33,569 nt of DNA, from contig JAFGSX010000275.1 in NCBI GenBank assembly GCA_016934455.1, positions 1 to 33,569 on the forward strand, read 5' to 3'. The stretch comes from Deltaproteobacteria bacterium. Lineage in GTDB: Bacteria > Myxococcota > JACRCW01 > JAFGSX01. The notes under the pieces are model-generated. The model searched no databases, was not told where the DNA came from, and saw nothing but the letters and a program-made list of their open reading frames with translations. Of the stretch, positions 8,670-13,596 are shown in pieces (position 1 is the stretch's first letter; each line of letters opens with the position of its first letter). The position numbers were made by a program, and so were the translations under genes.

Positions 8670-9176
8670 TCAGACCTGGGTCTGCATCGTCTGCTTGACG
8701 CCGCTGGTGGCCTTTTCGACCACCTTGGACGTCAGCTCGAGCTCCTGCGAGTACTTGTAGACGCCAGCCTGGATCGCCAGCAGCTCCTGCTGGCCAAAGT
8801 GCCTGCCGCTGGTCGCCATCTTGATGATCTCGTCGAGCTTGTTCTGGCCATCGACGATGCCCGAGAGCATCTTTTTAAAGCCCTTGCCGGTGCCCTCCTT
8901 GCTGGCCTCGACCGACTTGACGCCGAGCGAGGTATCGGTGGCGTTGAGCTTGGCAGCCTGCAGCGTCTCGATCGCCTTGACCGGCGCCTCGACCTGGCGC
9001 ACGCCCTCGACCTGCTGCGGCCCCTGCGCGCCCTGCACCTGCTGCGCCTGCATCACGTCGTTGAACTTGTTGGGCTGCAGTTGCTGCTGCTGCTGGATCT
9101 GCTGCTGCGCTTGCTTCTGGATCTCCTCGACCATCTTGGCCGAGGCCTGACCCAAGCCGCCAACTGGATTTGCCAT
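8670..9176 (-). CDS. Candidate type III secretion inner rod protein (SctI/YscI/HrpB-like)
   Basis: C-terminus GQQELLAIQAGVYKYSQELELTSKVVEKATSGVKQTMQTQV matches the C-terminal pattern of YscI/HrpB inner rod proteins; Gln-rich N-terminal half; ATG at 9176. Confidence 0.7.
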   Translation of the reverse strand: MANPVGGLGQASAKMVEEIQKQAQQQIQQQQQLQPNKFNDVMQAQQVQGAQGPQQVEGVRQVEAPVKAIETLQAAKLNATDTSLGVKSVEASKEGTGKGFKKMLSGIVDGQNKLDEIIKMATSGRHFGQQELLAIQAGVYKYSQELELTSKVVEKATSGVKQTMQTQV

Positions 9177-9223: not shown

Positions 9224-9250
9224 ATTATCGGCCCGGCGCGCTGCAGGTTG
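9224..9250 (-). promoter_or_regulatory. Putative FliA/sigma-28-like promoter upstream of the SctI-like gene: CAAC-N14-GCCGATAAT
   Basis: Minus strand reads ...gagcagCAACctgcagcgcgccggGCCGATAATaga...; GCCGATAA equals the canonical FliA -10 consensus; -35 is non-canonical. Same CAAC-N16-CGATAAT arrangement at 11822-11848. Confidence 0.4.
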
Positions 9251-9324
9251 CTGCTCGGTCCGAGAAACTCCGTAATATATCCGATAAGTTATGATCCGCG
9301 TGCCAACATGAGGCAATGCTTGGA

Positions 9325-10149
9325 CTAATCGTTGTCGTGGATCAGCTCGCGCAGCAGCCGCGACAGCTTCTCGACCGCCTTGGCGTGCAGCCGCGAGGTC
9401 CAGCTCTTGGAGAGGCCGAGCGCGTCGCCGACCTCCTGCAGGCTCATCTCCTTGAAATAGTACATTTTGAGCAGCGTGCGCTCCTGCTCGGGCAGCCGCT
9501 CCAGCGCGTCGCGCACGTACTTCTTCATCTGCACGTCGCCGACCTTGATGTCGATCGGCTCGGCCTCGATGTCCGGAAGCTGCAGCCCCTCGATTCCCTC
9601 CAGGCTGGTGACGTAGATGGTGACCAGGTTCTGCACTGCCTCGGCCAGCTCGGTCACCTCGTCCTCGGCGCTCTTGCCCTCGTCTCCGACCGCGACCCGG
9701 TCGGCGACGTTGGTCAGGTAGGAGTTGGCGCGCTCCTCGAACCTGAAGCGCGCGTACTCGTTGCGCGATACCCACCCCATGTTGCGCAGCCCGTCGTAGA
9801 TGGCGCCGCGGATCCGGTAGTACGAAAAGGTCATGAAGTTGGCGCCAAAGCGCGGGTCGAAGCGGTTGGCGGCCTCGAGCAAACCGACCATGCCGTACTC
9901 GACCAGGTCGTCGAACTCGATCTCCTTGGCCAGGCTCTTCTTGACCTTGCCCGCGATCGAGCGCACGTAGGGCAGGTACTGATCGATCAAGTTCTGCTGG
10001 TTGACCTTGCCATTGGAACCGATGGCCGCCGGCCTCTCCTTGACCGAAGGCTGCGATTTCGATGGCGGCACCGACGCCACCGGGGGTTGGGCAGCGGGTG
10101 GCGCTGCGGGCTTGACACTGCCCTTTTTTCGGCTCGGTGCCGGGGTCAT
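9325..10149 (-). CDS. FliA/WhiG-type sigma-70 family RNA polymerase sigma factor
   Basis: LIDQYLPYVRSIAGKVKKSL...IEFDDLVEYGMVGLLEAANRFDPRFGANFMTFSYYRIRGAIYDGLR (region 2); LPEQERTLLKMYYFKEMSLQEVGDALGLSKSWTSRLHAKAVEKL (region 4). ATG 10149 or GTG 10158. Confidence 0.93.
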   Translation of the reverse strand: MTPAPSRKKGSVKPAAPPAAQPPVASVPPSKSQPSVKERPAAIGSNGKVNQQNLIDQYLPYVRSIAGKVKKSLAKEIEFDDLVEYGMVGLLEAANRFDPRFGANFMTFSYYRIRGAIYDGLRNMGWVSRNEYARFRFEERANSYLTNVADRVAVGDEGKSAEDEVTELAEAVQNLVTIYVTSLEGIEGLQLPDIEAEPIDIKVGDVQMKKYVRDALERLPEQERTLLKMYYFKEMSLQEVGDALGLSKSWTSRLHAKAVEKLSRLLRELIHDND

Positions 10150-10168
10150 CCGCTCCACCGCTTTGCGC

Positions 10169-10558
10169 TCACGACTTTGCCAGTCGCAGCAGTTGGCTGT
10201 GGATTTTTTGGGCCATCTCCTCGTCGCGCTCGATCAGGTCGGTGACCGACTCCTCCATGCGCTTGATGCCGTGGCCCTTGAGACCCTTGAACCGGTCGCG
10301 GATGACGGCCTTGACGAACCGCTTGGTGGTCTCGGACTTGTCCTGCTTGCCCTGGGCCAGCTCCTTGGCCACGCCCATCAGCTCGTCGAGCAAGGCCGAG
10401 CGCATATGCCGCACCAAGGCCTCGGTGGATTCGACCTCGCCCGCGCGCCCCACCATCTGCGCGAACTCGGTGCCGCGAACGCCCTTGGCGCCCCTGGCCT
10501 TGCCGGCGCCACCTGCCTTGGCGCCGCGCGTCGGACCCGAGGGGCGTCTGATCTGCAT
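10169..10558 (-). CDS. Basic hypothetical protein encoded immediately upstream of the sigma factor; possible T3SS accessory
   Basis: MQIRRPSGPTRGAKAGGAGKARG...TEALVRHMRSALLDELMGVAKEL...; basic N-terminus, helical C-terminal half; 19 bp from the sigma gene. Confidence 0.6.
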   Translation of the reverse strand: MQIRRPSGPTRGAKAGGAGKARGAKGVRGTEFAQMVGRAGEVESTEALVRHMRSALLDELMGVAKELAQGKQDKSETTKRFVKAVIRDRFKGLKGHGIKRMEESVTDLIERDEEMAQKIHSQLLRLAKS

Positions 10559-10641
10559 CGACAACTGGCTACCTCCCGTGCGCTCAGCGCAGTAGCTCTG
10601 GGAACCTGCGCCAGGTAGCGCTGCTGCCCTGGCTCGGCCTG

Positions 10642-10668
10642 ATCATCGCTCCCCCCCGCCGGTCGATG
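10642..10668 (-). promoter_or_regulatory. Weak third match to the shared element: CATC-N16-CGATGAT
   Basis: Minus strand ggCATCgaccggcgggggggagCGATGATc; same spacing as the other two sites with one mismatch in each half; 83 bp upstream of ATG 10558. Confidence 0.2.
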
Positions 10669-10697
10669 CCAGCAGACGCGCGCGCGTGGCGCCGCGG

Positions 10698-11120
10698 TCA
10701 GGGCAACTTTTCAAAACAGCCGACCTGGTGCGCCTCGATCAAGCTACGGGCGAAGTCGGCGGCCAGGCTCTTGGGCTCCATCTCGACGGCCGCCTTGAGC
10801 TCGGTCAGCGCCTCGTCGAACTTCTTGAGAAAGATCAGCGCCTCGCCGACGTGCGCGCGCGCCAGCGCCGAACCGGGGTTGACCCTGAGCCCCTCGCGGT
10901 GCGACTTGAGGGCCTGCTGGAACTTGCCCTGCGAGAAGTACATGTTGCCGAGGGCGACGTGCGGGATCTCGCTGTGCGGGATCAGCGACGCCACACCCAT
11001 GAAGACCTCGGCTGCCTCCTTGAACTTGTTGAGCTCCATGTACAGGTAGCCGGCCTCGAGGAGCAGCGCGACTTCGCTCTGCGGCACGTCGACGATGCCC
11101 TTGACGATGTACTCGCTCAT
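10698..11120 (-). CDS. TPR protein, LcrH/SycD-like class II type III chaperone candidate
   Basis: ALLLEAGYLYMELNKFKEAAEVFMGVASLIPHSEIPHVALGNMYFSQGKFQQALKSHREGLRVNPGSALARAHVGEALIFLKKFDEALTELKAAVEMEPKS: three TPRs in a small ~140 aa protein. Confidence 0.7.
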   Translation of the reverse strand: MSEYIVKGIVDVPQSEVALLLEAGYLYMELNKFKEAAEVFMGVASLIPHSEIPHVALGNMYFSQGKFQQALKSHREGLRVNPGSALARAHVGEALIFLKKFDEALTELKAAVEMEPKSLAADFARSLIEAHQVGCFEKLP

Positions 11121-11196
11121 TGCGGTCCCCGTCGCTGATACTGCGCTGGTCGCATTCTCCGGCAGAACCGTCATCGCAAACAAGGAAAAAAAGGGC

Positions 11197-11231
11197 AAAA
11201 AAAAGGCGGCGCCCGATGTGCGGGCGCCGCC
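11197..11231 (-). terminator. Strong rho-independent terminator downstream of the 11252-11761 gene
   Basis: Minus strand: GGCGGCGCCCG-cacat-CGGGCGCCGCC-TTTTTTTT; perfect 11-bp stem and 8 Ts. Confidence 0.9.
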
Positions 11232-11251
11232 CCGTTACCGCCAGAGACCGA

Positions 11252-11761
11252 CTACCGGACGTTGTTGATGGTCGACTTCGCCGTGTCGTGCTTGGTCTTC
11301 ATCACGTTCGAGATCGTCGTGAACTGACGATTCTCTCCCTGCATCTTCTCCTGCAGTTGCAGATACTGCAGCGAGAAGCTCATCTGCATCTCCTGCATCG
11401 CCTTGGTCTGGTCGAGCAACTGCTGCTGCGAGCCGGCCGAGCTGGTCGCGCCGGTCGAGGAGCCGGTGGGGTCGCTCATCGTGGGACCGGTGCCCGGGAT
11501 GTACTGGGTGCCGTCCGCGTTGTAGCCGCCGCCGGTGATCGAGCTGGCCGCGCCGTTGACGGCCGCCGAGACCACGGCGCCGCCTGGAACAAAGGGAGCA
11601 GCCACACTGGTCGCGCCTGCGACAGCGCCCGCGCCAGTGGCCACGCCGTTGCGCACCATAGTGCCAAAATCGGTCCGTGGAGTCTGACGCACCGTGGTGG
11701 TGCTAGAATCCAGTTGGACCGACCCTCCGCGCCCTGTTCCGGTGGTAGAAATGACACCCAT
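11252..11761 (-). CDS. Candidate T3SS-exported extracellular protein (filament/needle/translocator-like), function unassigned
   Basis: No Sec signal; Ser/Thr/Gly-rich N-terminus, central hydrophobic Ala/Gly/Val stretch, helical C-terminus QEMQMSFSLQYLQLQEKMQGENRQFTTISNVMKTKHDTAKSTINNVR. Confidence 0.55.
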   Translation of the reverse strand: MGVISTTGTGRGGSVQLDSSTTTVRQTPRTDFGTMVRNGVATGAGAVAGATSVAAPFVPGGAVVSAAVNGAASSITGGGYNADGTQYIPGTGPTMSDPTGSSTGATSSAGSQQQLLDQTKAMQEMQMSFSLQYLQLQEKMQGENRQFTTISNVMKTKHDTAKSTINNVR

Positions 11762-11821
11762 GGCTGGCTAACCTCCCTCCCGACTTCATTTGTCGGGACG
11801 TTATCCGTTGTCTACGTAACG

Positions 11822-11848
11822 ATTATCGCTGTGCCGGATGAACTGTTG
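11822..11848 (-). promoter_or_regulatory. Putative FliA/sigma-28-like promoter upstream of the 11252-11761 gene: CAAC-N14-AGCGATAAT
   Basis: Minus strand ggCAACagttcatccggcacAGCGATAATc; shares CAAC and CGATAAT at identical spacing with 9224-9250. Confidence 0.4.
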
Positions 11849-11888: not shown

Positions 11889-12224
11889 TCACTTGGGCGC
11901 TGGACCGGCCAGACCAGACTTGGTTTGCCAAAGAAATTCAAGGAGATCCTGCGTGCGCTCGTAGGCCGCGATGGCCTTGCGCACGGCCCCCTTGTCGCGC
12001 GCGTTGCCCGCCTCGGCCAGCGCCCGCAGCGCCTCCAGCCGCTGCTCTGGGCCGCTCCAGTCAAGCTTCTCCTGCTCGAGCAGCCGCTCGATGGTCGGAA
12101 AGCCGGCGCCGGTCGACTCGTCCCCGGCTGCGGGCTGGCCTTTCTTCTTCTTGCCGGCGGAGAGCGGAACCTTCTGGGCATCCGAGGCCTTGAACGTCTT
12201 GAGATCCTGCTTGGGCTTGGCCAT
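11889..12224 (-). CDS. Small Lys-rich hypothetical protein in the T3SS-like cluster
   Basis: MAKPKQDLKTFKASDAQKVPLSAGKKKKG...FPTIERLLEQEKLDWSGPEQRLEALRALAEAGNARDKGAVRKAIAAYERTQDLLEFLWQ; ATG at 12224. Confidence 0.65.
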   Translation of the reverse strand: MAKPKQDLKTFKASDAQKVPLSAGKKKKGQPAAGDESTGAGFPTIERLLEQEKLDWSGPEQRLEALRALAEAGNARDKGAVRKAIAAYERTQDLLEFLWQTKSGLAGPAPK

Positions 12225-12265
12225 CTTCTTGTGCTCCCTCTGGCTCTCTGGGCGCTCGCTGCCGG

Positions 12266-12877
12266 CTATGGATCGCTGGGATCGTAGGCGTCGGTCGGCG
12301 TCGGCTGCGTGCATTTTTCTTCGACGTTGCTGACCGCGTCGTCATCGACGTCGCAGGGCGAGGCGCCGGTCACAAAATCATCCACGGTCAGCGGCCCGAC
12401 GCCGGTGTCCTCGCTGGTGTTGGGCATGTCACGGCACTGGTCCATTGCCACGAAGTCGCTGTCGGTGAAGGTGACCTCGATCACGTCGCTGGCCGGCTTG
12501 GACAGCGCCAGGGTTTTGGTCGCCTGGGCGAGCAGCAGCCGGTAGGGTTTGTCTACGCCCCAGCTTCCGTCTCCACCGTGCGCCGTCGTGTCCATGATAA
12601 AATAATCGAGCGTCGCCACGCGGTCGAGCCGCGCCGTGATGTTGGGGCAATCGCCGCTGACGCTGTTGTCGGCGGTATTGACCACCAGATCGCAGGAGCG
12701 ATGAGCCATGCCGGAGACGAAGAGCTGGGCCCGGATGTCAGAGGGCGGTGCCGCGCAGACCACGCGCTCCGGAAGCTGCAGGGAGATGGTGACCGTGGCG
12801 TCCGGATCGGCCGCGGCGCAGCCGACGGCGACCGTCAGCGCCAGTCCGCCCGCAACGGCGCGCAGCGACATCGTCAT
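12266..12877 (-). CDS. Putative exported lipoprotein with Asp-rich C-terminus
   Basis: MSLRAVAGGLALTVAVGCAAADPDATVTISLQLPERVVC...; lipobox-like VAVGC; C-terminal DVDDDAVSNVEEKC resembles a thrombospondin type 3-like Ca-binding motif. Confidence 0.7.
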   Translation of the reverse strand: MTMSLRAVAGGLALTVAVGCAAADPDATVTISLQLPERVVCAAPPSDIRAQLFVSGMAHRSCDLVVNTADNSVSGDCPNITARLDRVATLDYFIMDTTAHGGDGSWGVDKPYRLLLAQATKTLALSKPASDVIEVTFTDSDFVAMDQCRDMPNTSEDTGVGPLTVDDFVTGASPCDVDDDAVSNVEEKCTQPTPTDAYDPSDP

Positions 12878-13596
12878 GGTGCGTTCCCCAGAGGCGCCTG
12901 GACCGGCGGCGGCGCCGTCACTCTGAGAGTCACGGTCCCGGGCGCCTCGGGTTCTTGCGACAGGGCATAGATCACCACTCCGATCACCGCGCCGGCGACG
13001 ACGACCGCTGCCACGCCGCTGGCCACGACCGCGATCACCAGCCCCGTGCCGTCGCCCTCGCCATCCTCGGTCTGCCCCGAGCCCGAGCCGATGTCCGGTA
13101 GTCCGCCGCTGGAGCCGGCATCGGTGCTGTCGCTGTTTATCGTTCCGGCGTCCGACCCGGTCACGCCGGCGTCGGAAGAGCTGGCCGCAGCAGCGGCGAC
13201 GGCGATGCGCAGTGGCTTGGGCTGGCTGCCGACCAGGGCCGGCCCGTTGCCGTGGATGTCAAAGGCTTCGAGGAAGTACTCGATGTCACCGGTGACCGCG
13301 CCCGCCGGGATGCTGGCCACATACTCGTCGCCCGTGGTCTTGACCAGCGAGGCGCTCAGAAACTCGCCTCCGCCGGCCAGACGGTAGTGCAGCCGGGCCT
13401 CGAAGACGCCCGATTGGTCGGTGATGGTGGTCCGGATCTCGATGGGTTCACCTATGACCGCACGGGTGATCGGCTGGTGGGACATCCGGGGCGCCCTGCG
13501 ATCGCGCATGGTCGCGGCAGCGGCCGGGCTCGCCATCGCGGCGAAGACGCAGACGCCTACAAGACCGGAGAGACTCCAATGTCGCACCGACACCAT
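12874..13596 (-). CDS. Exported, C-terminally membrane-anchored hypothetical protein
   Basis: N-terminal signal (LVGVCVFAAMASPAAAAT), beta-rich VIGEPIEIRTTITDQSGVFEARLHYRLAGGGEF..., TM segment LVIAVVASGVAAVVVAGAVIGVVIYAL; ATGA overlap with the next gene. Confidence 0.7.
   Translation of the reverse strand: MVSVRHWSLSGLVGVCVFAAMASPAAAATMRDRRAPRMSHQPITRAVIGEPIEIRTTITDQSGVFEARLHYRLAGGGEFLSASLVKTTGDEYVASIPAGAVTGDIEYFLEAFDIHGNGPALVGSQPKPLRIAVAAAAASSSDAGVTGSDAGTINSDSTDAGSSGGLPDIGSGSGQTEDGEGDGTGLVIAVVASGVAAVVVAGAVIGVVIYALSQEPEAPGTVTLRVTAPPPVQAPLGNAP

Follow-up and report, generated by a model that had tools for sequence, protein, structure and literature searches.

A conserved two-part promoter before type III secretion genes of Myxococcota and its probable reader, a dedicated sigma factor of flagellar type

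Class 3 flagellar promoters, read by FliA (sigma-28), are close described counterparts of a 27-bp element, CAAC-N16-CGATAAT, that occurs twice in a 33,569-nucleotide contig from a Deltaproteobacteria genome of the phylum Myxococcota (JAFGSX010000275.1, assembly GCA_016934455.1; this whole stretch is called the window). The two cases are alike in the -10 (GCCGATAA), in overall spacing and in the best-scoring profile family of the sigma factor, although the sigma described here scores below the curated cut-off of that family. Like the FliA promoters, the element would drive genes for filaments secreted by a type III secretion system (T3SS), with rod and needle-like subunits in the place of flagellin. 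They differ in the -35, which is (c)gCAAC here and TAAA in the flagellar case, and in the sigma factor, which carries a helix of the form SKSWxSRxH in place of the ESRVSQxH or AARxxQLH type, belongs to a separate clade, and is linked to a non-flagellar T3SS (NF-T3SS), also in genomes without flagella. A second parallel is HrpL, an extracytoplasmic function (ECF) sigma factor with an unrelated promoter. HrpL is dedicated to a T3SS, and its two-part promoter, the hrp box, stands before apparatus genes and scattered effector genes and is usable for genome scans (PMC2957411, PMC3879358). The sigma described here would share that functional role, but is of the FliA type. Chlamydia also combines a T3SS with a sigma-28, whose reported targets, hctB and tsp, are not known to belong to the T3SS. 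Both are late genes served by this sigma-28, which has been compared with the ordinary bacterial sigma-28 consensus (PMC12282069).

The closest apparatus is the 'Myxo' NF-T3SS, or T3SS* (MXAN_2434-2464), which belongs to the same phylum and whose cluster, in Myxococcus-like genomes, contains the genes considered here for the sigma, for SctI and for the LcrH-like chaperone. It has been described as having no needle, with no sigma factor mentioned (PMC3459982, PMC12075869, PMC10433427). In M. xanthus T3SS* is required for prey lysis, its effectors being stated as unknown and no needle having been found (PMC10433427, PMC12075869). Our literature search, with subscription papers outside its reach, found no paper connecting a sigma factor to this T3SS.

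We propose, with a probability of about 0.88, that the two elements (A and B) are promoters of one regulon, read by the sigma factor encoded between them and covering an SctI-like gene, the gene p11252 and scattered genes whose products resemble T3SS substrates. The features concerned are:

9224-9250, minus strand: promoter element A, CAAC-N16-CGATAAT, 47 bp before the ATG (9176) of the SctI-like gene
11822-11848, minus strand: promoter element B, CAAC-N16-CGATAAT, 60 bp before the ATG (11761) of p11252
9325-10149, minus strand: FliA/WhiG-family sigma factor (Pfam Sigma70_r2 and r4), proposed reader of elements A and B
8670-9176, minus strand: SctI-like gene (inner rod of type III secretion systems) that follows element A, assigned by weak profile matches and alignment
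11252-11761, minus strand: p11252, 169 amino acids (aa), downstream of element B, with the C-terminal tail SNxMKxxxDxxxxxINNxR by alignment

An earlier note on this DNA had described two minus-strand sites with identical halves at identical spacing, 47-60 bp from a start codon, and a FliA-type sigma gene between them. All of this was confirmed: the letters (CAACCTGCAGCGCGCCGGGCCGATAAT at 9224-9250, CAACAGTTCATCCGGCACAGCGATAAT at 11822-11848) are exactly as claimed, the distance from the end of the -10 to the ATG is 47 bp for A and 60 bp for B, and the intervening gene has FliA/WhiG as its best profile family, with a score below cut-off. Within the window, A and B are the only two exact matches. 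The note also assigned a canonical FliA -10 to both sites. Read with GCAA as the -35, the sites become GCAA-N15-GCCGATAA at 9224 and GCAA-N15-AGCGATAA at 11822, so that the full GCCGATAA is found at the 9224 site alone.

The dedicated sigma regulon suggested by the note is supported by conservation at orthologous loci, where the element precedes p11252 and SctI-like orthologs across Myxococcota, M. xanthus included, and by a genome-wide excess; it extends past the cluster to scattered effector-like genes. Sigma orthologs are widespread in the phylum, at about 45-64% identity, and the order p11252 - tetratricopeptide repeat (TPR) chaperone - (p10169) - sigma - SctI-like gene is kept in most of 20 neighbourhoods. 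We scored CAAC and CGATAA (10 positions) at spacers 12-20 in the 260 nt upstream of each cluster gene. At spacer 16, 12 of 14 p11252 orthologs score 9 or 10 out of 10; at each of the spacers 12-15 and 17-20, no more than one of the 14 does. A spacer-16 element also precedes 8 of 14 SctI orthologs (counted by hand from the table), with a counterpart of element A in the same place in loci L063, L067 and L069-L072 as well as in many loci of a second set. The latter comprises 80 further loci, retrieved from named genomes by the sigma alone, and holds 44 spacer-16 sites that share the strand of the sigma gene, spread over 38 loci, compared with 0-11 sites at other spacers and one copy of the reversed pattern. 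All but one of the 44 sites precede an open reading frame (ORF) with a Shine-Dalgarno (SD) sequence and ATG, nearly always the p11252 or SctI ortholog; in M. xanthus AM003 (L305) the p11252 ortholog has the element 70 nt ahead of it. In some Archangium-like loci the SctI element and the end (3') of the sigma gene overlap, and there coding constraint may contribute to the conservation of the element.

In the same 260-nt scoring, the regions ahead of the chaperone, p10169, sigma, p11889, p12874 and lipoprotein orthologs gave no element signal. Autoregulation of the sigma through an element of its own was rejected, since the relatives have none before the sigma, chaperone, p10169 or p11889. Read-through from element B could possibly transcribe the sigma gene, though a strong terminator follows p11252. 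Separately, 11 sites with an 18-nt spacer were observed in 7 loci, mostly in distant 'Deltaproteobacteria' records and near sigma orthologs in L290, L292, L296, L315 and L319; CAAC-N18-CGATAA is apparently a lineage-specific variant with a longer spacer.

Two half-sites at fixed spacing are also a usual layout of an operator, and the element might instead be the two-box target of a transcription factor. We regard this as very unlikely, given that the halves are asymmetric, that the spacing, the match of CGATAA to the FliA -10, the fixed orientation toward the gene and the ATG at about 25-125 bp are promoter-like, and that opposite-strand copies are rare (5, as compared with 44 on the sigma strand, in the 80 sigma loci).

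The genome-wide scan proposed by the note shows the element well above background in genomes that have the sigma. We searched 117 genomes of the phylum for CAAC-N16-CGATAAK, of which 69 have the sigma, 45 do not, and 3 outliers were set aside. The sigma-bearing genomes contain 510 copies at N16, compared with 61 at N15 and 80 reversed, whereas the sigma-less genomes show no clear excess (58 at N16 versus 51 at N15). The binomial p for N16 versus N15 in the sigma-bearing group is about 1e-89; since the genomes are related, this value overstates their independence, and the argument is carried by the contrast between the groups and by the spacer control. Among 108 sites inspected in 7 genomes, 56 are followed by an ORF that has an SD sequence, is 80 aa or longer and lies 15-135 nt past the site; for random positions within these loci the share is 17%. 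At the ORF-supported sites G precedes CAAC in 66%, C stands one position earlier in 55%, and C precedes CGATAA, which the search pattern itself fixed, in 59%. The predicted promoter consensus is a (c)gCAAC -35, N16 and a CGATAA(T/G) -10. A canonical FliA -35 (TAAA) was rejected because the conserved half is CAAC. The GCAA-N15 reading offered by the note is correct as to the letters, but the -35 is not a poor version of TAAA; it is conserved and distinct, and goes with a changed sigma helix.

The source assembly (5.6 Mb, 613 contigs, 82% complete; the window is contig C452) holds three exact CAAC-N16-CGATAAT copies: the two in the window and an unlinked one at C61:126-152 (L001), 52 bp before the ATG of a 290-aa protein in which a C39-peptidase-like domain is preceded by a disordered Ser/Thr/Gln-rich N-terminus. 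The looser CAAC-N16-CGATAAK occurs five times, compared with one reversed and no spacer-15 copy, and each of the five is followed by an SD-preceded ORF 47-68 nt downstream. The one-mismatch sites of this genome were not taken at face value, as many read GATCAT or GATGAT and have no suitable ORF after them.

For the sigma factor, the best family over the full length is NCBIfam FliA_WhiG (154.5 bits, E 3.5e-45; curated cut-off 189.6). A Pfam search detected regions 2 and 4 and not region 3, a further difference from FliA. In a tree its clade stands apart from the flagellar FliAs of the same genomes with a support of 100/100, bar one unstable long-branch row. The region 4.2 helix reads LSKSWTSRLH in the window, and SKSW(T/A/V)SR(L/R)H is invariant in all sigma members compared; the corresponding helix is TESRVSQIH in a solved WhiG/FliA-like relative and AAR(V/I)CQLH or EARVCQLH in the flagellar-type sigmas of the phylum. 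A changed -35-recognition helix fits a non-canonical -35, the two changes support each other, and we infer from them that this sigma is paired with this promoter. As to the apparatus, contig C334 of the source genome carries non-flagellar T3SS genes (SctR above cut-off, and SctQ-, SctT-, SctP- and FliO-like), while a profile search of this incomplete, fragmented assembly did not find SctV. G049, a Myxococcus-like genome that is complete, has the sigma and SctV 20 kb apart inside a long T3SS locus, and in G002 and G029 the sigma is on the SctR contig, within about 8-12 kb.

Several observations weigh against a single regulon read by this sigma. In G002, G029 and G049 the sigma and the apparatus genes are directly linked, which is not the case in the fragmented source assembly. 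Exact N16 sites are missing from 42 of the 80 sigma loci (some have one-mismatch or N17/N18 versions), and the sigma-bearing genomes G012, G105, G109 and G066 have few or none; by the ORF criterion used here, roughly every second site found genome-wide has no good ORF after it, so that the site lists include chance hits. By profile, both SctI and needle are weak assignments. A search of the window allowing two mismatches found 5 sites versus 2.2 expected, a count reached by 10 of 100 shuffles. That last count is unremarkable and speaks for a chance resemblance of two unrelated upstream regions. We rejected a chance origin as scarcely credible because of the spacer, reversed-pattern and phylogenetic controls: before the same two genes the element is conserved phylum-wide at a single spacer length, and it is enriched genome-wide.

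Three genomes, moreover, show the motif excess without a close sigma ortholog: G006 (16 versus 1; 100% complete), G025 (11 versus 0; 75%) and G001 (6 versus 0; 92%). These would be expected if a real promoter were read by another sigma, either a flagellar FliA, present in many Myxococcota, or some other sigma-70 relative, with the cluster sigma reading something else; the -10 is indeed that of FliA. This explanation appears unlikely. In the Myxococcaceae-like family f10 (e.g. G049) the cluster sigma is the only strong FliA-type match, yet most of these genomes have 4-11 sites versus 0-2 at spacer 15. Across genomes the sites track the cluster sigma and adjoin its gene, whose -35 helix departs from that of FliA exactly where the -35 departs.

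Besides the SctI-like gene and p11252, the CGATAAK sites of the source genome precede genes for the C39-like protein, a 377-aa DUF1521 protein and a lipoprotein, and its one-mismatch sites precede genes for three more: a muramidase-like protein with LysM and GH46 (at least 484 aa), a LysM protein of 430 aa, and a protein of at least 480 aa that is for the most part of low complexity. Targets in relatives include a DUF6209 and DUF7689 protein, an M48 peptidase, a PLD-like protein and a thioredoxin with an EF-hand, and many have no Pfam match. DUF1521 is a domain of NopE1/NopE2 and of a type III-secreted protein of Vibrio coralliilyticus (PMC6506597). Both in the source genome and in relatives, apparatus-type genes (SctI, p11252) share a promoter with unlinked genes of predicted effector type. 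Judged by sequence, the unlinked targets look like effectors, that is, substrates of the myxobacterial T3SS, and the regulon likely flags many uncharacterised proteins as cargo of this predation-linked system. A set of peptidoglycan-cutting targets, if secreted, would accord with the requirement for this system in prey lysis. By eye, an EF-hand-like DxNxDG stretch opens several regulon proteins (L133, L196, L231, L184); together with the metal-triggered DUF1521 protein of the source genome, these suggest a possible calcium theme.

A search of 146 phylum genomes with the needle family PF09392 gave 17 matches in 11 genomes, two of which had matches over the cut-off. Several of the matching proteins are about 250-470 aa or more and end in SNxMKxxxDxxxxxIxNxR; proteins with such needle-like tails are located at L234 (G078:C133), L239 (G040:C76), L244 (G017:C53), L242, L238, L243 and L240. 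Those of G078, G040 and G017 have CAAC-N16-CGATAA close upstream, though the element was not used in finding them. Needle-like exported subunits under this sigma are thus likely and a real needle in T3SS* is possible, and the tails in several targets call the label 'needleless' into question. In G006, several very large ORFs also have needle-like tails; profile searches of this genome found neither SctI nor a full-length p11252 ortholog.

Of the p11252 family itself, two of 14 members match PF09392 directly (E 0.02 or weaker), while hhalign of the family against the tails of PF09392-positive proteins gives a probability of 96.9% (E 1.4e-10). At 169 aa p11252 is twice the usual needle length; its AlphaFold model has a C-terminal helix (109-168) at low confidence (pLDDT 55), and a sequence search of the PDB gave no match. 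In the SctI-like family 9 of 15 members match NCBIfam SctI (NF038054) and 5 match yscI_hrpB (TIGR02497), all weakly, the protein of the window with 15.3 bits versus a cut-off of 39. Second pairs of a p11252 and an SctI-like gene, away from the sigma-linked cluster, were seen at G066:C361, G105:C16 and G109:C231, possibly marking a second T3SS locus. The remaining features of the cluster are:

11203-11233, minus strand: intrinsic-terminator-like hairpin (13 pairs, 11 of them G-C, then a T-run), directly after p11252
10698-11120, minus strand: TPR protein resembling LcrH/SycD type III chaperones (LcrH_SycD 29.7 bits, cut-off 104.8), conserved in the cluster
10169-10558, minus strand: p10169, a small protein of about 129 aa between chaperone and sigma, with a disordered N-terminus and helical C-terminus
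11889-12314, minus strand: p11889, a conserved cluster gene with an uncertain start codon; orthologs in the same place in L068-L074 and L080

The hairpin predicts a short p11252 transcript. For p10169, a Pfam search and a structure model with Foldseek gave no match of weight, and it is a speculative candidate for a secreted or FlgM-like anti-sigma protein. Three genes upstream of element B (11889-13596: p11889, one lipoprotein-like, one membrane-anchored) are conserved beside the sigma cluster in relatives.

In the mechanism we favour, the sigma would recognise (c)gCAAC-N16-CGATAA(T/G), which combines the -10 of FliA (sigma-28) with a -35 of its own. Element A would switch on the SctI-like inner rod gene, and element B would switch on p11252, whose small product, ending in a needle-like tail, is probably an exported subunit; the p11252 transcript would be short and closed by the strong terminator; elsewhere in the genome the same promoter would serve scattered genes whose products resemble substrates of the 'Myxo' NF-T3SS or M. 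xanthus T3SS*. Most likely the sigma is made while the T3SS is built or used, so that rod, needle-like subunit and cargo are supplied together, much as FliA supplies flagellin with other late genes; the targets may accordingly be late genes of the flagellar kind, perhaps under anti-sigma control. More doubtful is a bolder version, in which flagellar-style transcription was retained in the earliest-branching NF-T3SS lineage, and an external needle-like subunit, the rod and secreted predation effectors are switched on by a sigma that derives from FliA and has a -35 of its own; T3SS* would then be neither needleless nor without identifiable substrates, and p10169 could be an exported anti-sigma resembling FlgM.

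Collectively, these elements are probably a Myxococcota-wide promoter, read by a dedicated flagellar-type sigma, for components of protein-injecting machinery employed in predation. Since the effectors of M. xanthus T3SS* are reported as unknown, the motif gives access to candidates across the genome: by marking a regulon, a conserved promoter would yield a testable list of candidate effectors in any sigma-bearing genome, much as happened with the hrp box in plant pathogens. A flagellar-type sigma that serves the lineage placed nearest the root of the non-flagellar T3SSs would also be relevant to their origin from the flagellum (PMC3459982).
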